The translations under genes and the position numbers were made by a program. The notes under the pieces are model-generated. The model saw only the letters and a program-made list of their open reading frames with translations. It was not told the origin of the DNA and did not search any database. A stretch of DNA of 26,992 nt from a virus, in the IMG/VR virus record IMGVR_UViG_3300035034_000067, positions 1-26,992 of that record; one strand, given 5' to 3'. This document shows positions 18,391 to 26,992 of this stretch, piece after piece. Numbering within the stretch: the stretch's first letter is position 1; every line of letters begins with the position of its first letter.

Positions 18391-19080
18391 CTACCCCGAC
18401 TTGGGGGGGGGGGCTAAAACTTCAACCACCGCCTGGAACAAACGGCTAGACGCCGGTGACAGCGTTTTGCGGAAAGACTCTTCTGACCAAAACAAGAAAC
18501 CTTGTTGCGTGGCTCTCCAATCAAACAAGTCTGACAACAGAACCGGGTTCTTGTCTGCAGCCGCCAAGTCTTCGGGTGTAACTCCAGGAGCCAGCAGCGC
18601 GACCAGCTCGTCTACCTTCGCTTTGTCAACAGTGTGTCCCCGACTAAGAACTTCGGAAACCAAAGTTGTCCAAGCTGTAACAAGCATAAGGTGGTAAACA
18701 ACTGCAGTAGACTCGGGCTCGTCTAGGTTGTAAAGCGAGCAGTAGTGGTTGCTTCGCTCCATCACTCGGTTTAAAGAGCCGTAACAATCGGACCAACTAC
18801 ATAACTGGTTAATTGCTTCCGCAAGCTGTCTTCGTTTTAACGGTTGCAGAGCAAACTCGAACCTTGCTGCCGCCTTTTCAGGGTGCTTGATTGGTGCTAC
18901 TGACAACAGCCCAGCCAGGTGGAAGTCAGGGCTTTTTTTGAGAGTTAACCCTGCTAGGCGTATTGTCTCGGTTCTTGACTCCAAGACGGACGTTGACCGG
19001 GGAGCTGCTGAAGACATGTGGGCCCAGACAACTTCAAAGTAGTGTGCCCAGTGTTCTGAGGGCTGGTGTTCAAGTTGCAT
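18391..19080 (-). CDS. Unknown helical protein, last gene of the amidoligase operon
   Basis: This 229-residue protein is not recognised. It is predicted mostly helical, with many Leu/Ala/Glu, several aromatic residues in the first 20 positions and a Cys-Ser-Trp-Ser-Asp-Cys segment near residue 97. The ATG overlaps the ATP-grasp stop by 11 bases, so it is part of the operon. There is no signal peptide or membrane segment. The final codons lie in an eleven-base C run (18403-18413), giving Ala-Pro-Pro-Pro-Lys-Ser-Gly at the end. A slip or sequencing error there would change the C-terminus. It may be a substrate, adaptor or regulator of the ligases, but that is only from position. Confidence 0.7.
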   Translation of the reverse strand: MQLEHQPSEHWAHYFEVVWAHMSSAAPRSTSVLESRTETIRLAGLTLKKSPDFHLAGLLSVAPIKHPEKAAARFEFALQPLKRRQLAEAINQLCSWSDCYGSLNRVMERSNHYCSLYNLDEPESTAVVYHLMLVTAWTTLVSEVLSRGHTVDKAKVDELVALLAPGVTPEDLAAADKNPVLLSDLFDWRATQQGFLFWSEESFRKTLSPASSRLFQAVVEVLAPPPKSG

Positions 19081-19864
19081 TCAAGTGTCCCCCAATAGCG
19101 TTTGCGTAGTCTATTGCGGTGTGTCCCTCCATACCCGGCGCGGAGTTTATTTCCAGAACAAAGCTTTGCTGCTGCCTTTCGTTGTACAACACGTCTACGG
19201 CACCAAAGTCAAGACCACAAGCTGACATAGCCTTGACACACTGTTCTAGGCAGTCCCCGTTGGGAAGGCTTACGTTCTCTCTGGCGTAGATAAACCCGTT
19301 TGCGTGGTTACGGACTTTCCAGTTTACCAGTTCGTCTGGAACGGTTGTGTTTCGGGCCTTCTTTTGCACCAGAAAGGGCGTAGCGCCAACCAAGTGAACC
19401 CGGAACTCGTCTCGTTTGAGACACTCCTTCACAAACAACGTACCGTCCCGGAAAGGTGCCAGTTCTCCAGGAGACTCAGCAACGACAATACCTTCGCCAC
19501 TATGGCCTGACAGCACCGTTCGAACAAACACTCGTGTCCTGGAGTTAGCAGTCCACCAGCTGACGGCTTCTTCAACCGAAGTTGTCCAGTCAGGGGTCCT
19601 AGGGCCGTTTACAGTTGAAGCGCAAGTTTCAAAAAAGGTCCTCTTGTTTGAAACTCGGGCTACCGCTTCAGGACGATTCAAAACACGGCAGGTGGCGTAG
19701 CCCGCAGGTAGACTAGAGTTCCCCCAGTTGATGACAACCTTGTCAGCAGACGGTTGAAACCGAGACCCTTCACGTCGAATTCGAAGTGCGCCAAGCGCTT
19801 GACCCAAGGCTCTGGCGGACCGGGACTCATCGCGATAGGGGTAGATAAACAAGCGGCTAGTCAT
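19070..19864 (-). CDS. ATP-grasp carboxylate-amine ligase
   Basis: This 264-residue protein has the ATP-grasp order: Val-Ile-Asn-Trp-Gly-Asn (44-49), Asn-Lys-Arg-Thr-Phe-Phe (73-78), Val-Arg-x4-Gly-His-Ser-Gly-Glu-Gly-Ile (114-126, the phosphate-binding loop region) and Phe-Val-Lys-Glu (144-147, nucleotide-binding strand). Glu-Phe-Arg-Val-His-Leu-Val-Gly follows (153-160), then Asp-Phe-Gly-Ala-Val-Asp-Val (219-225), and Leu-Glu-Ile-Asn-Ser-Ala-Pro-Gly (237-244), whose Glu and Asn coordinate Mg. These enzymes use ATP to activate a carboxylate as an acyl phosphate and join it to an amine or thiol. The protein is compact, with no fused domain. It overlaps the upstream ligase by ATGA and the next gene by 11 bases. 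The substrate cannot be inferred. Confidence 0.87.
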   Translation of the reverse strand: MTSRLFIYPYRDESRSARALGQALGALRIRREGSRFQPSADKVVINWGNSSLPAGYATCRVLNRPEAVARVSNKRTFFETCASTVNGPRTPDWTTSVEEAVSWWTANSRTRVFVRTVLSGHSGEGIVVAESPGELAPFRDGTLFVKECLKRDEFRVHLVGATPFLVQKKARNTTVPDELVNWKVRNHANGFIYARENVSLPNGDCLEQCVKAMSACGLDFGAVDVLYNERQQQSFVLEINSAPGMEGHTAIDYANAIGGHLNAT

Positions 19865-20691
19865 TGACTACGTCCTCCCCAGTTGGTTGTATAGGCCAGC
19901 TCTTGTACCAGCCTCAAAGCTCTGATAACCCGGTCGGGGTTAATTACCAAGCCTTCAAAGTAAGACCTACAAAAGGCTTCGGGACCTTGGTCTGAAAACT
20001 GTGCAGTGACCTCGATTGGGCTGTGAAAGCTGGCTAAAGTGTGTTGGAACACGCGTTCAATCACAGCAACCCAAGCCAGTATCGGTGCCGCTGTAGTTGG
20101 GGTCCGAAGACTGCGAAACTCTAAAGAGTTGAACCGTGGGATTGCTCCCAAGTTGACGGCTCCGTACTTTAGGCTGTCACAAACATGAGGCTCGCTCGAC
20201 ACCCCCTTACGAGACAAAGACGTAATGAAGTAGTTCAAAGGGTTGGCCGCGTCTAGGATCCGCAAGCAAAACAGGTTGCCTGCTCTTTCGGCTCCGCAGT
20301 ACTGGTCAATAAGCTCTGCTTCCAGGATCCAGTAAGCAGTAAGCACTGTAGCCACCTGCTGGTAGGTCAGCCGTTCTACGTTTCGGTGAACGTGAACACC
20401 GGCTCGCATTGAGTCAGCGTTCGACCTACCACAAGCAGTGTAAAGGCCTTTTACCATTGACTGCGCATCCGCCCAGGACACTGGCGACGTGGTAATAAAC
20501 TCAATGCCTGAGTTTCGCAAGGACGAGTCTGGTTTGGGGACCCACCTGTAAGCCAGCCCGCCGGGTTGGTAGTGGGCAGGGGCAACTTGCTGCGTCAAAC
20601 CTTCCATCTCTATCTCGATGCCAAACAGCTCGTCTTCAGCGAAAGTTGGGGACGACTTACCATACACCTTGTAGATAGGACTATTTAGCAA
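19861..20691 (-). CDS. COOH-NH2 ligase, Amidoligase_2-like (glutamine-synthetase fold)
   Basis: This 276-residue protein carries the marks of the Amidoligase_2 group, a glutamine-synthetase-like fold: Phe-Gly-Ile-Glu-Ile-Glu-Met-Glu (23-30), Asp-Ser-Ser-Leu (55-58), Gly-Ile-Glu-Phe-Ile-Thr (62-67), Gly-Val-His-Val-His (98-102), Phe-Cys (141-142) and Leu-Glu-Phe-Arg-Ser-Leu-Arg (190-196). The acidic residues and His pair are expected to bind Mg-ATP. It should form amide or isopeptide bonds. The start is TTG at 20691 with AGGAG seven bases upstream, and an 11-base overlap with the previous gene. It ends in an ATGA overlap with the ATP-grasp gene. Confidence 0.85.
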   Translation of the reverse strand: MLNSPIYKVYGKSSPTFAEDELFGIEIEMEGLTQQVAPAHYQPGGLAYRWVPKPDSSLRNSGIEFITTSPVSWADAQSMVKGLYTACGRSNADSMRAGVHVHRNVERLTYQQVATVLTAYWILEAELIDQYCGAERAGNLFCLRILDAANPLNYFITSLSRKGVSSEPHVCDSLKYGAVNLGAIPRFNSLEFRSLRTPTTAAPILAWVAVIERVFQHTLASFHSPIEVTAQFSDQGPEAFCRSYFEGLVINPDRVIRALRLVQELAYTTNWGGRSQ

Positions 20692-21301
20692 TGTGGGCTC
20701 CTAACAGGGTTTCTTGCTCAAACTTTTCTTGAAGCCAAAAGAACTTAGGGTTTAACAAAACTGTACCGTTGTGATCTACTCGGCCCACGAGGTGCCGACC
20801 GCAGTAGTCGACGCTTAGACCGCGAGTCAATGCAAAAGACGCAGAGAAGGCCAGCGAATCGTAGTACTCTTCTACCTTTTCGAGAGCTTCCAGGAAACTT
20901 GGAAACACCTTTTTGACCGAAGTAGTCAACAAACCCATACCCCCAACAGAAAACAAAGAAGACCTGGAACCCGACATCATCTCTTGTCGACCTTGAGTAA
21001 ACCACTGGAACTGGCTTGACCGAAGACCTTGTCGGTAGTCGCGCCGCGCGGCTGCTCTGACAGGGAAGACCGCAACTCGTTCTGCGTGGCAGTTTACAAA
21101 GTTTAGTGGGGGAGCCTCAAATTGCATCTCTGAAAGAGGCAAAGACTGGTTTCGACCTCCAGGCTCTAACTGGACTTTAGGATGCCCAGTGTTTTCTGAA
21201 ACGTCACCGGTTACGTAAACAAACTGATCGTGCTGGCTTGACCAAACAAAGGTACCTCCAATTCGGGACATAGCGTAGTGCAGGTCACCATCGTAGTTCA
21301 A
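20681..21301 (-). CDS. Unknown protein in the middle of the amidoligase operon
   Basis: This 206-residue protein is not assigned to a family. The start is TTG at 21301, overlapping the previous stop as TTGA with GGAGG at good distance. The first ATG, ten codons later, has no such site. Visible features are a Phe-Val-Tyr-Val-Thr-Gly-Asp segment (27-33), a Pro-Gly-Gly-Arg-Asn turn, and Arg-Xaa-Asp-Tyr-Arg-Gln-Gly-Leu-Arg (about 86-94). A middle helix with many Glu, and a C-terminal Asn-Pro-Lys-Phe-Phe-Trp-Leu-Gln, complete it. There is no membrane segment or signal. Being between the two COOH-NH2 ligases suggests a partner or substrate-delivery protein. Confidence 0.72.
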   Translation of the reverse strand: MNYDGDLHYAMSRIGGTFVWSSQHDQFVYVTGDVSENTGHPKVQLEPGGRNQSLPLSEMQFEAPPLNFVNCHAERVAVFPVRAAARRDYRQGLRSSQFQWFTQGRQEMMSGSRSSLFSVGGMGLLTTSVKKVFPSFLEALEKVEEYYDSLAFSASFALTRGLSVDYCGRHLVGRVDHNGTVLLNPKFFWLQEKFEQETLLGAHIAK

Positions 21302-22134
21302 GACAAGCCCTCCAACTTTTTTAAAACAGACTTGATAGCCACTGGGGCTCTCAAAGAATTCACCTTACTTAAGGAGTCAAGACCCAAGCTGGTTGGGTAG
21401 TAGACCCCACGCGCCAAGTGGTCGATTGACCGGGTCAGCGCTTGAAAGACCTCTGACCGCCAGCTAGGTTTGCTGGCCCACACGTTACTTGGCGACCTGA
21501 ACTCCATCCCGTAACTTTTAGGCCTAAAGCAACCGGGAGCCCCGTAAAACTTCTCGCGTTCTGTATTTGAGTCGTTCAGTCGAAGGCCTAAAAGCAGCCC
21601 CACGTCTAGCTGACGAGCGAGTACCCCACACTGAGCAAGGTAGTCGGGGTCAGTAACGTTCTTCAAGTCCCGGTCCCAACCGACGTGAGCGTGTCCTCCC
21701 GCAGACCTCATAGTCGCCCTTGGTGGTGATGGTTTCCTGTTGATAGACACTTCAGACCCGCCTCGGCCCCAAGCGTTGTAGTCAGGCTCGCACCCCAGTT
21801 CTAAAGCTTCTGGAGGTTGTTCGGCCATCACCCTTTCGCTGAAATCAACCAGAGGCACAAATCGGAGTTCGTAACGAGACCCCAGCATTGACTGAACAAT
21901 TGTAACACACTGATCAATACCGTTTACAAAGGCTTCTTCTGTGAAGGCTGGGGGAGGCCCAAACTCGACAGCCAGGCCGTCTGTCATGATCAAGCAGCCG
22001 TCTTCGACGTGAGGCTCGTACTTAGATCCTGGCAGCATACCATGGGCAGAAACAAACTCTGAGTCTGCCTTGTCCCAAAGGAACACTTCAATGTCCGCCC
22101 CAAACAGGTAGTCTTGTCCGTGGATAGTGGGCAT
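21298..22134 (-). CDS. Phage phiEco32-like COOH-NH2 ligase, type 2
   Basis: The start is ATG at 22134 (TAATG overlap with the class-II GATase), rather than 12 codons upstream, giving 278 residues. It matches the phiEco32-like COOH-NH2 ligase group: Gly-Ala-Asp-Ile-Glu-Val-Phe (12-18), Ser-Ala-His-Gly-x-x-Pro-Gly-Ser-Lys (29-38), Asp-Gly-Leu-Ala-Val-Glu-Phe (52-58), Gly-Cys-Glu-Pro-Asp-Tyr-Asn-Ala-Trp (114-122), Arg-Ser-Ala-Gly-Gly-His-Ala-His (143-150) and Glu-Phe-Arg-x-Pro-Ser-Asn-x-Trp (211-219). The conserved Glu and His residues correspond to metal-ATP ligands of the glutamine-synthetase fold. It should join a carboxylate to an amine at the cost of ATP. The natural substrate of this family is not established. 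Confidence 0.9.
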   Translation of the reverse strand: MPTIHGQDYLFGADIEVFLWDKADSEFVSAHGMLPGSKYEPHVEDGCLIMTDGLAVEFGPPPAFTEEAFVNGIDQCVTIVQSMLGSRYELRFVPLVDFSERVMAEQPPEALELGCEPDYNAWGRGGSEVSINRKPSPPRATMRSAGGHAHVGWDRDLKNVTDPDYLAQCGVLARQLDVGLLLGLRLNDSNTEREKFYGAPGCFRPKSYGMEFRSPSNVWASKPSWRSEVFQALTRSIDHLARGVYYPTSLGLDSLSKVNSLRAPVAIKSVLKKLEGLS

Positions 22135-23141
22135 TAAGCACCAAAGCCTTTCTCTACACAGTCTGAACAAATCGGGTTAGACAAAGACTGAAAAAACAAC
22201 GCCGAGTGCTTGGGTTTTGTAAAGTCAGCCTTGTCTATAGTGTCCGAACAAACCGAACAACCGCAGCTCAACGCGTTAGCCCAGTCGCTAGCCAACCACG
22301 ACAGCGGGGGTAACTTGCTGTGGGTCGAGACGGACCGGTGAACAGCCAACCGGTTCGACACAGGTTTTGTTCGGTTGTAAGTCTGCGCGTTGTAAACAGT
22401 CACGTTTGAAGAAGCGGTGTAGGTTTCTTTCTTTTTGAACGGCACTCTTTTGATGTCTGAAGTGATGTTGGCCTTCTTACTAACGTCAAAGACCCACTCA
22501 ATGAAGGGGGCCACCTCGATCGGTGTGACTACAGTCCGGTAGACCCGATAAAAAGCCATCTTCAGAAACCAGGGGTCTGAACTGAAGAAGTAAGCCCCCT
22601 TTTCATAAACGTAGAACAAAGGCCGACCCTCGTTTCGGGCAACGTGCAGGGTACTTGTAGCAAGGTTGTGCCAAACAAAAGCAAAGGGTGTAGACGTCTT
22701 TTCTTCGATGTCCTGCACGCTCCAACCTTGTGACATAGCGTGAAAGATTGCTTCAGAATCTACTTGGAAGCGCTTGTGGTTTGGCAACGCCTCCAGACCT
22801 GTTCGCATGCTGCCATTGTGAACCCCAATAATGTCACCTTGTACGAACGGGTGGGCGTTCTCTTTAGACTTAGCCCCAAAAGTTTTTTCACGGTTGTGAC
22901 CAACCAGGTACTTTGCGTCTACCGCGTTCAGGACCCCGTCCGCGTCAAAGCAGTTGTAGGCGTTCCACAGGTCTTGCGGAGTCCCTTCGGTCTTGCAGTG
23001 AAAAACCTTGTCCTTTTGCATCCAGAAGACACCGGTACCGTGAACCCCGCGCAGTCGGTCTATGTACAGCAACCACGCAAAGACTTCCCGTTCCATTACC
23101 GTCAGTGTACTTGGTGACACTACCCCAACAATGCCACACAT
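22134..23141 (-). CDS. Class-II glutamine amidotransferase (Ntn hydrolase) with C-terminal Cys cluster
   Basis: This 335-residue protein begins Met-Cys-Gly-Ile-Val-Gly, so Cys2 becomes the N-terminal nucleophile after Met removal. Further active-site marks are Arg-Gly-x2-Gly-Thr-Gly (31-37), Gly-His-Asn-Arg-x-x-Thr-x-Gly (81-89, glutamine binding), Asn-Ala-His-Pro-Phe (95-99), His-Asn-Gly (108-110, oxyanion hole) and Val-Asp-Ser-Glu-Ala (127-131). It should release ammonia from glutamine or cut a glutamyl amide. No synthetase domain of the usual partners (PurF, AsnB, GlmS, GltB) follows. Instead about 130 residues end in Cys293-x-Cys295-x2-Cys298 and Cys325-x2-Cys328, a likely zinc-binding knuckle. 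It has TAATG overlaps on both sides. Confidence 0.9.
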   Translation of the reverse strand: MCGIVGVVSPSTLTVMEREVFAWLLYIDRLRGVHGTGVFWMQKDKVFHCKTEGTPQDLWNAYNCFDADGVLNAVDAKYLVGHNREKTFGAKSKENAHPFVQGDIIGVHNGSMRTGLEALPNHKRFQVDSEAIFHAMSQGWSVQDIEEKTSTPFAFVWHNLATSTLHVARNEGRPLFYVYEKGAYFFSSDPWFLKMAFYRVYRTVVTPIEVAPFIEWVFDVSKKANITSDIKRVPFKKKETYTASSNVTVYNAQTYNRTKPVSNRLAVHRSVSTHSKLPPLSWLASDWANALSCGCSVCSDTIDKADFTKPKHSALFFQSLSNPICSDCVEKGFGA

Positions 23142-23812
23142 TACACTACCTCTTTTTTCAAACCAAGAAAGTTGTCGAGCAGCCAGCGGTACACGGCTTT
23201 TTCAACCGCAGTTCCTGACTCTGGATGGAACTGTACTCCCATGGACTTTGCTTCAGGAAAAACCATTACTTCGGGAGTGGTTCGATTTTGGACCCCGTTG
23301 CCTCCGCTTTCTGCGAGGACAAGCGACTTAACAGCTCGGTCAGGCACCCCGTAAGACTTTTCAACTACCTGGTGATGTCGAGAAGACACCCTAGCGTAAG
23401 TCGGAACAATGCCGGACACTTCTGTAAAGTGTTCAGCCGACAACGAGGTCTTAGACCAAGACAGCGTGTGGGTTGTGGCCTGGTGCCCAGGGCTGTGTTG
23501 AGCCAAGTTATCGCCAAAAGCAACAGCAAGAAACTGCATGCCTCGACAAATACCGGCCATTGGAATCTTGTTGGCCAAACAGTAGTGAACCAAGTTCAGC
23601 TCCCAAAGGTCGCGAGACCAGTCAACTCCAGTGGTGTTTGCCCCCAGTCTTTGGTGGTACAGCATTGGAGACACGTCCCCGCCTCCGGTAAACTGCACAA
23701 AGTCAGGCTTGTCGGAGACCTTTTCAACCAACTCAAAACCGTAGTCGTCGGTCATAAGTCGGTGGTAAGCTGTCTTGTACGTGTCAGTAGCAACTACGAG
23801 TACCTTGGTCAT
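23141..23812 (-). CDS. Class-I glutamine amidotransferase-like hydrolase (peptidase C26 / PuuD-like)
   Basis: This 223-residue protein has Phe-Thr-Gly-Gly-Gly-Asp-Val-Ser-Pro (41-49, oxyanion side), Ala-Gly-Ile-Cys-Arg-Gly-Met-Gln (86-93, nucleophile elbow with Cys89), Ser-Ser-Arg-His-His-Gln (143-148) and Gly-Val-Gln-Phe-His-Pro-Glu-Ser (192-199, His196 and Glu198). The full Cys-His-Glu triad is present. It resembles gamma-glutamyl hydrolases such as gamma-glutamyl-GABA hydrolase rather than a synthase subunit. It could cut a gamma-glutamyl amide or feed ammonia. The stand-alone form next to a class-II GATase is unusual. TAATG overlaps link it to both neighbours. Confidence 0.88.
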   Translation of the reverse strand: MTKVLVVATDTYKTAYHRLMTDDYGFELVEKVSDKPDFVQFTGGGDVSPMLYHQRLGANTTGVDWSRDLWELNLVHYCLANKIPMAGICRGMQFLAVAFGDNLAQHSPGHQATTHTLSWSKTSLSAEHFTEVSGIVPTYARVSSRHHQVVEKSYGVPDRAVKSLVLAESGGNGVQNRTTPEVMVFPEAKSMGVQFHPESGTAVEKAVYRWLLDNFLGLKKEVV

Positions 23813-24723
23813 TAAACCGCTTTCATTTTTGTTGCTTTGATGGCAGCACCTAAAAACCCAAGTAGCCGGGTTACAGCAATGTAGTTACTGCTGGTGGTCT
23901 TTGACTTTGGCAAGTGACGCTGCCAAGTTGAGTACCAGGGGGTCCGTACAGGGTCTCTGACAAGGGTTGCTTTAGTAAGTCTGGCTGCCTCTTTGTCTGA
24001 GGACCGAAAGAGGCTGCAATCAAAGACCTTAGACTCAACTCCACAGAACCGTTTGGTTAAGTCTCCTGAAGACCACATAGACGGAAACTGGTGGCCGGTT
24101 GCGCTAGGGGCGGCCAGTTCAAAATTAAGAAGATGATGGGCCGTGATTCGGTCTGTAAAAAACAGGTGCGCGTAGTTGACGGCCAAGTTTGTCTCGACTA
24201 AGCAGCCTTGGTCTAGCGACAGTCTGTTTGCCAGGACAACTATAAAGGCCTGACGCCAACTGAGGTTCGAGGCCAGCGTCAAAGCTACGATAGCATTTGT
24301 GCAAGTGTCAGCGTAGTCTTGTGTTGCCCGGATACACTGCAGGACCACCATAACATCAAGTATTGGCTGCCCAGACAGTCTTACGAGGAACCCGTGCTCG
24401 AGGCACCAGTCAAACTCGAGACCCTTGTCAAAAAAGCTACCGGTATAGGGGTCGTCCCAGATCCAACGCAGCAAGGTCTTAACGTTGTCGGTCTTGTCCC
24501 CTGGCATGTGGGTGTGTACCAGGTAGTCTTCGGTCATGTTTTCAGGGTCGATTGCTGCAAACATGTAGGCGTGGCAGTAGCGTTCAAAAGTAGCAACCGG
24601 TACAGCTCCGCCGAGTCTGCCAGTTCTGGCCCCAACTAAAAAGGAAACAAAGGTGTTGCGCTTTTGCAACTTTTGACGTGCCACCGCCGACTCTAGCTCT
24701 AACTTTAACTTGTCGTAGTCCAT
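23812..24723 (-). CDS. Unknown protein, first gene of the amidoligase operon
   Basis: This 303-residue protein has no recognised family. It starts at ATG 24723 with AGGGAAACAGG just upstream, immediately after a terminator. The N-terminal 40 residues are basic and helical. Around 85-150 is a region with several Asp, Trp and Cys (Trp-Ile-Trp-Asp-Asp, Phe-Asp-Trp-Cys-Leu-Glu-His). Around 145-190 lie Ala/Leu/Val-rich helices that could be buried or membrane-near but contain charged residues. The C-terminus is basic. It ends in a TAATG overlap with the class-I GATase. Leading the operon suggests it is needed with the enzymes, perhaps as the acceptor or a targeting subunit. Confidence 0.72.
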   Translation of the reverse strand: MDYDKLKLELESAVARQKLQKRNTFVSFLVGARTGRLGGAVPVATFERYCHAYMFAAIDPENMTEDYLVHTHMPGDKTDNVKTLLRWIWDDPYTGSFFDKGLEFDWCLEHGFLVRLSGQPILDVMVVLQCIRATQDYADTCTNAIVALTLASNLSWRQAFIVVLANRLSLDQGCLVETNLAVNYAHLFFTDRITAHHLLNFELAAPSATGHQFPSMWSSGDLTKRFCGVESKVFDCSLFRSSDKEAARLTKATLVRDPVRTPWYSTWQRHLPKSKTTSSNYIAVTRLLGFLGAAIKATKMKAV

Positions 24724-24770: not shown

Positions 24771-25019
24771 TTACTCTTGGACCGACCGAACCGCAGCCCG
24801 TAGTCGCCCGTAGTCGTCGATAAGCTGCTTGGTTGCCATCAACCGTTGGGCTTCTAGTCGTTCATACTCGTCTGCGGCTTGGTTCAAAAAGGCCTGGTCG
24901 TACTGAACCAAAGGAAACCGGACAAGGCTAGAAGGACCCGTCGCGCAGCCGCTGACTAGTAGTCCGGCTGTCGCCATCATGGCTATCCAAAGCCTGGTTG
25001 ACTTTGTCTTGAGCTGCAT
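24771..25019 (-). CDS. Small lipoprotein, probable outer-membrane spanin (Rz1-like)
   Basis: Starting at ATG 25019 (GGAGAG upstream) gives 82 residues with a basic start, a hydrophobic signal (10-22) and the lipobox Val-Ser-Gly-Cys with Cys25, followed by Ala-Thr-Gly-Pro. The mature 58 residues are charged and helical, with Asp-Tyr-Gly-Arg-Leu-Arg near the end. A small lipoprotein overlapping, in another frame, a gene for a short inner-membrane protein is the layout of Rz/Rz1 spanin pairs, which disrupt the outer membrane of Gram-negative hosts at lysis. Unlike lambda Rz1 it is not proline-rich. A strong terminator follows. Confidence 0.6.
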   Translation of the reverse strand: MQLKTKSTRLWIAMMATAGLLVSGCATGPSSLVRFPLVQYDQAFLNQAADEYERLEAQRLMATKQLIDDYGRLRAAVRSVQE

Positions 25020-25161
25020 CTTGCTTGTCTCTCCACTCGGCGTCGGTGACGGCCCCACCCTTACGGTAGGAGACCACAGCGACCCACTTGTAAAACACTA
25101 CCAACAGCACCACCCAGTAGTACTTTAAGTTTTTAGAAAGCCACGCTAACACCTTAAGCAT
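24928..25161 (-). CDS. Short membrane protein, probable inner-membrane spanin or holin-like
   Basis: The ATG at 25161 has AAGGAG seven bases upstream and is preferred to the earlier in-frame start. The 77-residue product has a transmembrane segment at about 14-31 (Tyr-Tyr-Trp-Val-Val-Leu-Leu-Val-Val-Phe), then a hydrophilic, charged region rich in Asp, Gln and Arg. The overlap of 92 bases with the downstream lipoprotein gene in another frame supports an inner-membrane spanin. It is much shorter than lambda Rz, so a one-segment holin or other lysis helper is also possible. It overlaps the previous gene's stop by eight bases. Confidence 0.55.
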   Translation of the reverse strand: MLKVLAWLSKNLKYYWVVLLVVFYKWVAVVSYRKGGAVTDAEWRDKQDAAQDKVNQALDSHDGDSRTTSQRLRDGSF

Positions 25162-25363
25162 GGGTAATCTCCTTGTTTCTAAAAGGATGGCCTTTAGCAA
25201 CAACAGTCACTGTCGGCAAGGACTCGGGGGTCCCGAACAAGAACTCCCCAGACGTCATGACCACCAGTAGTCGGTCTTCAAAGGTCTTCATAAACAGAAC
25301 TTGGTACTCTCGTTTGTCTGTTCCCAGACTGACAAAGTCAGAGGGAGCTGCTAGCTTCCACAC
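25154..25363 (-). CDS. Small protein of unknown function after the ribonucleotide reductase gene
   Basis: This 69-residue protein starts at a GTG (25363) that overlaps the reductase stop by 13 bases, with AGGAAAGGG upstream. It looks like a small beta-rich domain (Glu-Tyr-Gln-Val-Leu-Phe-Met, Leu-Leu-Val-Val-Met-Thr-Ser-Gly-Glu-Phe-Leu-Phe-Gly-Thr). It has no Cys pair, so a glutaredoxin or thioredoxin that would reduce the reductase is excluded. No family is recognised. Internal Met starts would make it shorter. Confidence 0.55.
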   Translation of the reverse strand: MWKLAAPSDFVSLGTDKREYQVLFMKTFEDRLLVVMTSGEFLFGTPESLPTVTVVAKGHPFRNKEITHA

Positions 25364-26992
25364 GACCCGCCCTTTCCTGAAATATCACAAATATCGTTTA
25401 CCTCGTAATGTACTTCACCAACCCGGTTTGCTGCTTCACTGTAAGACACCTTGGTCAACGGTTGGCCCCCTCGGGAACCGTCCGCGTAACAGGTGAAACC
25501 ACGAAGCCTGTGAGCGTAGGTGGCCAGGGTCTTTGCAAAGCTGTCAACACGGTCTTCGTTGTTCAGCTCGGTGCCCCACGCCGGGAGGTTGATGGTCGAA
25601 CTAATAGCCATGTCAACGTAGTCTTGAACGTCAGCTTGGAACTTAATCCGGCGTTCTGGGTCCGACGCAAGGTCGGCAGCGGTTTCAATAGACTCGGGGT
25701 CAAGGCCAAACCTGCGGACCAAGTCGTCTGCTGTAGAGTCAATGACGTACTCGTAAGCCCAGGTCTGTCCCGTGGTCAGGTAACGACGCTTCATCGCAAC
25801 CGCGTACAACGGTTCGATGCCACTGGTCGTACCCGCAACAAGAGCAATAGACCCTGTGGGTGCAATAGCACGAGCAGCAACAGGCCGTGACACTGACAGC
25901 TCGTCTGCGGTAGACCGAGCTACCACGTCTGACACGTCCCGATAGACCGCAAGCCAGTCGTGAAGCTCTGGTACAACTTCGTAGCGGTGACCTCGACGTA
26001 GCAACCACTCGTGCAGTCCCATTAGTCCGAGACCCAGACGACGATTCTTTTCCCGTACTTTGTAGACCTGGTCATAAGGTAAGTCTGCCCGCAGCGTACC
26101 ACACAAAAGGAACTTAGTTGCCAGCTCGGTTACGGTTGCTAGTTCTTCGATAGACCCGATGTTTGCAAGGTTAACCGACCCCAAGTTACAAACGTCAGAG
26201 TTGTCCTCAGACGTCACTTCACAACAAGCGTTACGAAGAGTCTCGTTTTCCTTGTCATAAAAGTTGAAGCTCATTCCCGGTTCAGAAGTGCGCAACGCTT
26301 GAGCAACGTTTTCCCGGAACACAGCCCCAACGTCTCCAGTTGCCTTAAACCGTTCAAGCCAGGCTGTGTTGTAGTTAACGCTGATGTTTGTCATGTCAAG
26401 GGGAGCAGGAAAGTTGAAGTCTTCGTTTTTGATGTCGGCTAAGGTTTTTCCTGTTGACCCAACAGGCATTGTGTCCCAGTCTTTAGCATGGATAAACTCC
26501 ATGACGTCGGCGTGGTCACAAGACAGGGACGCATAGATAGCAGACCTTCGAGAGCCCCCCTGCATGATGTAACGGCCTTGCTCGTTGACCATCTTCATCT
26601 TACTGATAGGACCGCTAGCCAGACCCCCAGACCCTTTCAGTAGGGTGTTCTTTGGACGGTAGACCGAGTAGTCAATACCAATGCCACCACCGGTAGTCAG
26701 ACAGCGTTCAGCTTCCCAAGACTTTTGAGACCAGTCTTCTTTTGTGGCTTCTTCGGCCTTGAGCAGGAAGCAGTTGTTGAAGTACTTCCGGGGTCGACCT
26801 GCGTAGTACAAGTAACGACCACCCGGAATAAACTTCATTAGTCGGATCTGTTCAGCAATTTCGTCAACCACAGAGACAGGCAGCAACCCACCACAGACGT
26901 CTTGAGCTAGAGTGACCGCCAGCTCTGCCCAAGAATCTGCTCCGGTGTGTCGGTACTTGTTATTAAAGATAGACTCCCCAATGGGAGTACGA
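25351..26992 (-). CDS. nrdJ: Class II (B12-dependent) ribonucleotide reductase, 5' truncated by the window
   Basis: The frame is open to the right edge, so the start is outside; about 546 codons are visible. It converts ribonucleotides to deoxyribonucleotides for phage DNA synthesis. Visible marks, in the visible order: Phe-Asn-Asn-Cys-Phe (26770-26785), Gly-Gly-Gly-Ile-Gly-Ile, Ser-Gly-Pro-Ile-Ser, Asn-Ala-Cys-Cys-Glu (the N-x-C-x-E radical site), Cys-Asn-Leu-Gly-Ser-Val-Asn-Leu, Ala-Pro-Thr-Gly-Ser-Ile, Thr-Ser-Gly-Ile-Glu-Pro and Ser-Thr-Ile-Asn-Leu-Pro. Then come Asp-Gly-Ser-Arg-Gly-Gly-Gln-Pro-Leu and a C-terminal Cys-x8-Cys able to re-reduce the active site. The last marks fit class II (NrdJ) better than class Ia, and no small-subunit gene follows downstream. 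Confidence 0.88.
   Translation of the reverse strand, partial: RTPIGESIFNNKYRHTGADSWAELAVTLAQDVCGGLLPVSVVDEIAEQIRLMKFIPGGRYLYYAGRPRKYFNNCFLLKAEEATKEDWSQKSWEAERCLTTGGGIGIDYSVYRPKNTLLKGSGGLASGPISKMKMVNEQGRYIMQGGSRRSAIYASLSCDHADVMEFIHAKDWDTMPVGSTGKTLADIKNEDFNFPAPLDMTNISVNYNTAWLERFKATGDVGAVFRENVAQALRTSEPGMSFNFYDKENETLRNACCEVTSEDNSDVCNLGSVNLANIGSIEELATVTELATKFLLCGTLRADLPYDQVYKVREKNRRLGLGLMGLHEWLLRRGHRYEVVPELHDWLAVYRDVSDVVARSTADELSVSRPVAARAIAPTGSIALVAGTTSGIEPLYAVAMKRRYLTTGQTWAYEYVIDSTADDLVRRFGLDPESIETAADLASDPERRIKFQADVQDYVDMAISSTINLPAWGTELNNEDRVDSFAKTLATYAHRLRGFTCYADGSRGGQPLTKVSYSEAANRVGEVHYEVNDICDISGKGGSCGS

Follow-up and report, generated by a model that had tools for sequence, protein, structure and literature searches.

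A phage amidoligase cassette, probably encoding one amide-conjugation pathway, in a lineage of long-tailed viruses

The stretch of DNA analysed here (the window) is a 26,992-base fragment, IMG/VR virus record IMGVR_UViG_3300035034_000067, from a virus whose siphovirus status is inferred from its genes. On its minus strand lies an operon of eight genes, g1 to g8 (Table 1), that almost certainly belongs to the phage amidoligase cassette of the phiEco32, LUZ24, PA11 and RIO-1 type, and we consider it very probable that this cassette works as one amide-conjugation pathway. The operon holds together an ATP-grasp ligase, a COOH-NH2 ligase, an Amidoligase_2 protein and a class-II glutamine amidotransferase (GATII), with g5 between the two ligases of predicted glutamine synthetase (GS) fold and with a peptidase C26 hydrolase and a member of a conserved family, U, upstream. 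Judged by its content and order, this gene combination is not new but the known cassette of phiEco32/LUZ24/PA11/RIO-1-like podoviruses; what is new here includes its lineage in long-tailed phages. Hundreds of sequenced phages keep the pathway, among them phages of Escherichia coli and Pseudomonas with uses in therapy work, and defining its core set (U, C26, GATII, COOH-NH2 ligase, g5, Amidoligase_2 and ATP-grasp), together with evidence that a bulky DNA adduct is an unlikely product, replaces a vague annotation with a pathway open to testing.

A scan of viral contigs with the single g7 protein gave no matches; a profile built from seven g7 sequences later found 537 relatives in IMG/VR, of which the best 80 were examined. 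These 80 were picked by similarity to g7, so counts of gene order and co-occurrence, taken over the 50 loci whose sequence extends 6.5 kb or more upstream of g7, describe near relatives and not all carriers. A gene-neighbourhood survey, a kind of check that a reading made from the sequence alone had proposed, shows that g3, g4, g5 and g6 occur together almost without exception (each in 49 of the 50 loci), with g2 in 41, U in 38 and a gamma-glutamyl cyclotransferase (GGCT) gene adjoining the cassette in 25. The window's order of U, C26, GATII, COOH-NH2 ligase, g5, Amidoligase_2 and ATP-grasp is identical in 28 loci and recurs with one insertion in Pseudomonas phage O4, which removes the novelty that the same reading had implied for the combination. 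Some loci carry duplications, either a second ATP-grasp gene or a second GATII and GGCT downstream of the first ATP-grasp gene (L044, L053, L062, L082 and L057, L064, L079/L080).

Among phage records, tblastn finds g7 homologues in 309 and g3 homologues in 326; the host genera named in this tally are Gram-negative, and related sets are found in CW02, phiEco32, phiM6, an Alcaligenes phage, tf and LUZ24. In relatives, purifying selection acts on the core cassette genes tested, with ratios of nonsynonymous to synonymous divergence (dN/dS) of 0.02–0.12 for g3–g7 of LUZ24-like isolates and of 0.08–0.23 among siphoviral relatives where dS is unsaturated. Because the genes stay linked in one order even between very divergent phages and are under such selection, a single pathway is the most probable explanation, as had been proposed from the sequence with ligase and hydrolase families that prove to be the right ones. 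Amidotransferases of both classes can free ammonia from glutamine, and the operon has one of each; its genes could instead be independent metabolic functions for glutamine or ammonia salvage that are merely clustered. We give this reading very little credence in view of the fixed order, the near-obligatory co-occurrence that extends to two genes of unassigned function, the overlapping frames and the three dedicated ligases.

At the sensitivity of profile searches through 84,980 prokaryote species genomes (GTDB), the cassette appears to be confined to viruses: the scan returned 14 loci only, all on contigs of metagenome-assembled genomes (MAGs). In 11 of the 14 the genes form clusters of the phage cassette type, two of the remaining three (L100–L102) lie in phage-like or weak surroundings, and the scan revealed no cellular setting for the cassette. 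The phage-type contigs (L089–L099) sit in MAGs named as Altiarchaeales, Patescibacteria, Crocinitomix, Dojkabacteria and others, a placement that likely reflects binning errors or infecting phages.

The closest described counterpart is gp59–gp51 of O4 (Zobellviridae, PA11/O4-type), which shares the window's order from U to the ATP-grasp gene. It differs in having an extra gene, gp57, between C26 and GATII, and its last gene, gp51, has no detectable relation to g8; O4 is a podovirus, with MazG-like, primase/helicase and polymerase genes downstream of its cassette. The LUZ24/tf/phiEco32 type has the same COOH-NH2 ligase, g5, Amidoligase_2, GATII and ATP-grasp genes, but with GATII after Amidoligase_2, GGCT adjoining and a primase next door, and no C26 was detected in tf or LUZ24; the LUZ24 homologues of g4, g6 and g7 are gp16, gp18 and gp21. 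In PSA-HP1, RIO-1, phiEco32, 7-11, PA11, tf, LUZ24, PaP3 and CW02 the set has been described as a putative peptidoglycan modification cassette, its supposed role being to block superinfection or to assist lysis (PMC5498523, PMC11945000), and a cell-wall-modifying pathway has already been proposed (PMC5498523, PMC11945000, PMC10580990, citing Iyer 2009 and Hardies 2013). The literature searched, which did not extend to the Iyer 2009 and Hardies 2013 originals, yielded no biochemical test of the cassette and no substrate.

The three kinds of ligase and two amidotransferase-type hydrolases recognised in the sequence-only reading agree with Pfam, PHROG and PDB profiles, with g4 and g7 falling below their own Pfam cut-offs. 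The g2 protein matches PF07722 (C26) at E = 5.5e-24 (85.6 bits against a cut-off of 20.5) and phrog_7218 at 1.2e-30; its nearest solved structures are Lin1909 (2e-08) and the gamma-glutamyl-GABA hydrolase PuuD (1.2e-06). For g3, the matches are to GATase_6 (2.1e-14; 54.1 bits against a cut-off of 27) and phrog_4736 (1.2e-52). It begins MCGIVG, conserves H82, R84, N109, G110 and D128, and ends in a zinc-ribbon-like tail (window 22134–22300) whose Cys pairs are kept in most of the relatives displayed. A role for this tail as an amino-group carrier of the LysW/AmCP type was rejected, as g3 C-termini vary and none of those displayed ends in Glu.

Both g4 and g6 are assigned the GS fold through their families, and neither matched a solved structure by sequence. 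With phrog_3815 (COOH-NH2 ligase) g4 matches at 1e-47; alone it scores 19.3 bits against PF14395 (Pfam cut-off 25), and 23 of 25 aligned relatives match that family at E <= 0.001. The g6 protein scores 26.9 bits against PF12224 (Amidoligase_2; cut-off 22), and all 16 of its aligned relatives match that family. Conserved residues are E28, E69, H160, H162, E223 and R225 in g4 and E26, E28, H100, H102, E191 and R193 in g6. For g7, a match to phrog_2599 (ATP-grasp) at 1.2e-76 and a family-profile match to RimK/alpha-L-glutamate ligase structures at 7.8e-06 support a predicted RimK-like ATP-grasp fold; its own score against RimK PF08443 is 14.4 bits, under the cut-off of 21. Alignments of 52–90 sequences per family bear out the claim that the catalytic motifs are intact: the window has the residues that at least 90% of relatives share, those at the catalytic positions of the five enzymes among them, and a few other conserved positions, none of them catalytic, are substituted.

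Three partners had been listed as uncharacterised, and each can now be placed, with functions that are still unassigned. The first, g1, is a newly recognised, divergent member of U: it scores 22.0 bits against the U profile (E = 3.2e-05 in a search of 5,624 open reading frames (ORFs)), the next non-member reaches 6.7 bits and the best of 2,000 g1 shuffles 6.3 bits. It occupies the position that U has in relatives and retains the U-invariant Cys50 and Arg132 and the near-invariant His186. A structure model of U (pLDDT 67) has no PDB match, and a cytidine-deaminase fold was set aside after weak matches only (E > 2).

The g5 protein belongs to phrog_11055 (7.1e-09) and, found as constantly as the ligases, is a core component of the cassette. 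Its AlphaFold model is confident (pLDDT 90.5) and has no PDB match at E <= 0.001; matches at that level in BFVD look like its own phage family only, CW02 included, and tudor/SH3 structure matches fell below significance. Its termini vary, and no C-terminal Glu or Gly-Gly tail is conserved. The third partner, g8, was at first an orphan, a status dropped once a comparison of neighbours revealed counterparts following g7: a profile of the gene in L009, L011 and L013 finds g8 at 4.6e-04 among the same 5,624 ORFs (next 0.14), and about 50 shared residues indicate that g8 corresponds to the g7-overlapping gene of L009, L011 and L012–L014. A tblastn search of phage records with g1, g5 and g8 found nothing; relatives of g1 and g5 are detectable by profiles only.

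The operon (18391–24723) is tightly packed, and an ORF check found its eight genes at the coordinates first reported, with overlaps at all seven junctions. Overlaps of 1 nt, each TAATG, join g1 to g2, g2 to g3 and, if g4 starts at ATG 22134, g3 to g4; with TTG 22170 as the start, the g3/g4 overlap would be 37 nt, and the TAATG junction makes the ATG the more likely start. The g4/g5 and g6/g7 overlaps are of 4 nt and the g5/g6 and g7/g8 overlaps of 11 nt, and Shine–Dalgarno-like GGAG(G) precedes each of g5, g6 and g7. Stop-to-stop lengths on the operon strand are 355, 303, 292, 279, 265, 247, 229 and 227 codons. In 200 shuffles of the operon region the eighth-longest frame was at most 111, so eight frames this long on a single strand greatly exceed what chance would give. 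In base composition the operon resembles the rest of the phage, and third-position GC content (0.50–0.59 in the operon, 0.53–0.62 in structural genes) is in line with the codon use described earlier as phage-like. None of the eight proteins has a membrane segment.

Table 1. Operon genes and upstream neighbours in the window
Feature	Coordinates	Strand	Assignment
g1	23812..24723	-	303 aa; divergent member of family U (phrog_27195-like)
g2	23141..23812	-	Class-I glutamine amidotransferase/peptidase C26, gamma-glutamyl hydrolase type; Cys89-His196-Glu198 triad, conserved across relatives
g3	22134..23141	-	Class-II (N-terminal nucleophile, Ntn) glutamine amidotransferase domain with C-terminal CxxC...CxxC zinc-ribbon-like tail
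g4	21298..22134	-	phiEco32-like COOH-NH2 ligase; ORF as listed starts at TTG 22170
g5	20681..21301	-	Core partner between the two GS-fold ligases; TTG start; invariant Arg82/Arg86 motif
g6	19861..20691	-	Amidoligase_2, second GS-fold ligase by family assignment; TTG start behind TAGGAGC
g7	19070..19864	-	RimK-like ATP-grasp ligase; D224, E238 and N240 conserved
g8	18391..19080	-	Small protein, so far in the siphoviral branch only; counterpart of the gene directly after g7 in L009, L011 and L012–L014
Other-frame ORF	24771..25058	-	Overlaps the Rz-like spanin gene; lipobox-like LLVSGC
Rz-like spanin	24928..25203	-	
Ribonucleotide reductase	25351..26991	-	Large subunit; cut off by the window end

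Because the cassette combines three ligases of two folds with two gamma-glutamyl-type hydrolases, we envision stepwise amide ligation and trimming on a cytoplasmic acceptor, with the operon acting as one cytoplasmic pathway. In such a scheme, g4, g6 and g7 would form successive ATP-dependent amide bonds, most likely by coupling one acceptor to (gamma-)glutamyl or other amino-acid units, while the Ntn amidotransferase and the C26 hydrolase could either supply ammonia from gamma-glutamyl amides or trim them, and U (g1), g5 and g8 would serve as dedicated partners. The order of reactions is our inference. So is the preference for gamma-glutamyl units, which is suggested by the hydrolases (g2 being nearest to PuuD and Lin1909), the PuuD- and RimK-like relatives, the linkage to GGCT and family knowledge of the chemistry of GS-fold and RimK enzymes, PuuA and butirosin.

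Candidate acceptors rank in our estimate from a cell-envelope peptide through a free gamma-glutamyl metabolite and a protein to DNA. The leading, though weak, guess is the one made by earlier authors: a cell-envelope precursor peptide, such as a UDP-MurNAc-peptide, modified to bar superinfection or to ready the cell for lysis. Several observations weigh against an envelope role or the wider scheme. The acceptor is not pinned down by any result, the cassette showed no murein-binding or Mur-ligase domain, and the window, as a fragment, has no match to the GGCT profile that half of its relatives match. Moreover, the host genera named in the tally are Gram-negative, with peptidoglycan that lies under the outer membrane and is not usually the receptor, and a role in superinfection is therefore not obvious. 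Taken whole, with the envelope acceptor included, the explanation falls somewhat short of an even chance in our judgement.

A free small molecule is an unlikely competitor. The ligases would make a gamma-glutamyl amine or short peptide, for example a gamma-glutamyl-polyamine or a compound protected by a gamma-glutamyl group in the manner of butirosin biosynthesis or the Puu pathway, from which C26, the Ntn enzyme and GGCT would later remove the gamma-glutamyl unit. The closeness of g2 to PuuD among solved structures fits this proposal, as do the cytosolic nature of the cassette proteins, the GGCT gene that adjoins the cassette in many carriers (annotated as BtrG-like in tf) and the glutathionylspermidine synthase encoded by the capsid-nearest phage DSS3_VP1, which has no cassette profile match. 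The PuuA/PuuD gamma-glutamyl-putrescine pathway and RimK share with the cassette the logic of a GS-fold ligase paired with a C26 hydrolase and a RimK-like ATP-grasp glutamate ligase; unlike PuuA/PuuD, the cassette uses other ligase families and has no recognised oxidase or dehydrogenase. No amine-producing or amine-oxidising enzyme (decarboxylase, PuuB/PuuC type) was recognised beside the cassette, whole genomes not being searched, and no such metabolite is known. Polyamines have been reported as a danger signal and as a DNA counter-ion in phage infection, and a more speculative, improbable variant would be a gamma-glutamyl-amine conjugation cycle peculiar to phages, in which a host amine such as a polyamine is captured and released, with g5 and U as a new carrier or assembly platform.

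A protein is a rather doubtful acceptor. In the manner of RimK, the ligases could tag a protein of the host or the phage with glutamyl or peptide units; g5 or U would act as adaptor or substrate, and the hydrolases would edit the tag. The g7 profile is indeed closest to RimK/alpha-L-glutamate ligase structures, and g5 is obligatory in 49 of 50 loci and modelled confidently as a globular protein, SH3/tudor-like in part at best. RimK-like sequence nevertheless leaves the substrate unfixed, and the variable g5 termini lack the conserved Glu or Gly-Gly tail.

DNA hypermodification, in which the cassette would make an amide-linked adduct on a phage base, we regard as very improbable. Podovirus cassettes do lie upstream of primase/helicase genes, and phages of the phiEco32 group resist restriction–modification by a pathway that is not known (PMC11990801). 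Yet virion DNA of tf, a carrier of g3–g7, was cut for cloning and mapping with RsaI, HpaI, EcoRV, SmaI and HaeIII (PMC3517423), for which we count 194, 8, 25, 22 and 261 sites in its genome. DNA of U17, a LUZ24-like carrier of the module, is cut by 11 of 16 enzymes (PMC11945000); LUZ24, in which we counted sites in place of U17, has sites for 11 of the same 16 and none for SmaI, PstI, SalI, NotI or XhoI. In addition, the cassette has no recognised base-activating enzyme. Bulky modification by the cassette is therefore unlikely from these digests and site counts, and since DNA of LUZ24-like carriers is cut normally, the restriction resistance of the phiEco32 group probably has another cause; a modification tied to a dCTP deaminase and a nucleotidyltransferase has been suggested (PMC11990801). 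Of the substrates first listed from the sequence, a bulky DNA-base adduct thus loses ground, and a surface molecule and a host protein stay as candidates, along with a metabolite. LUZ24-type phages, which are isolated, have digestible DNA and are used in infection studies, are well suited to testing the pathway; amino-acid changes in LUZ24 infection are cited in PMC11898732.

That the window comes from a long-tailed siphovirus, as first suggested, is upheld by a 2005-aa tape measure, a distal tail protein and the central fibre J. With seven IMG/VR loci (L009–L014 and L020) it makes up a siphoviral lineage in which g7 identity between the window and its closest relatives is 46–51%, L012, L013 and L014 have near-identical cassettes and most loci have a g8 counterpart. 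Ribonucleotide reductase precedes U in L010–L013 and is also upstream of the cassette in the window, and where contigs reach, the cassette of the siphoviral loci is followed by convergent genes for J, the tail and the tape measure. The window cassette, with tail genes downstream, is not placed upstream of primase/helicase, a position that is common but not universal elsewhere. A single origin of the siphoviral cassettes is suggested by g6, whose quick tree unites them in one clade (SH-aLRT 100), and weakly by g7 (77/14); the g4 tree has no siphoviral clade and pairs the window with another long branch, and both g4 and g6 of the window lie on long branches.

The region between the ribonucleotide reductase gene and the operon (24771–25203, minus strand) likely encodes an Rz/Rz1 pair. 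No cassette profile matched DSS3_VP1 or the first 50 kb of EBPR siphovirus 1, the isolates nearest to the window in capsid; DSS3_VP1, at 50% in the major head protein, encodes a nicotinamide phosphoribosyltransferase as well as its glutathionylspermidine synthase (L106, 28585–29745).

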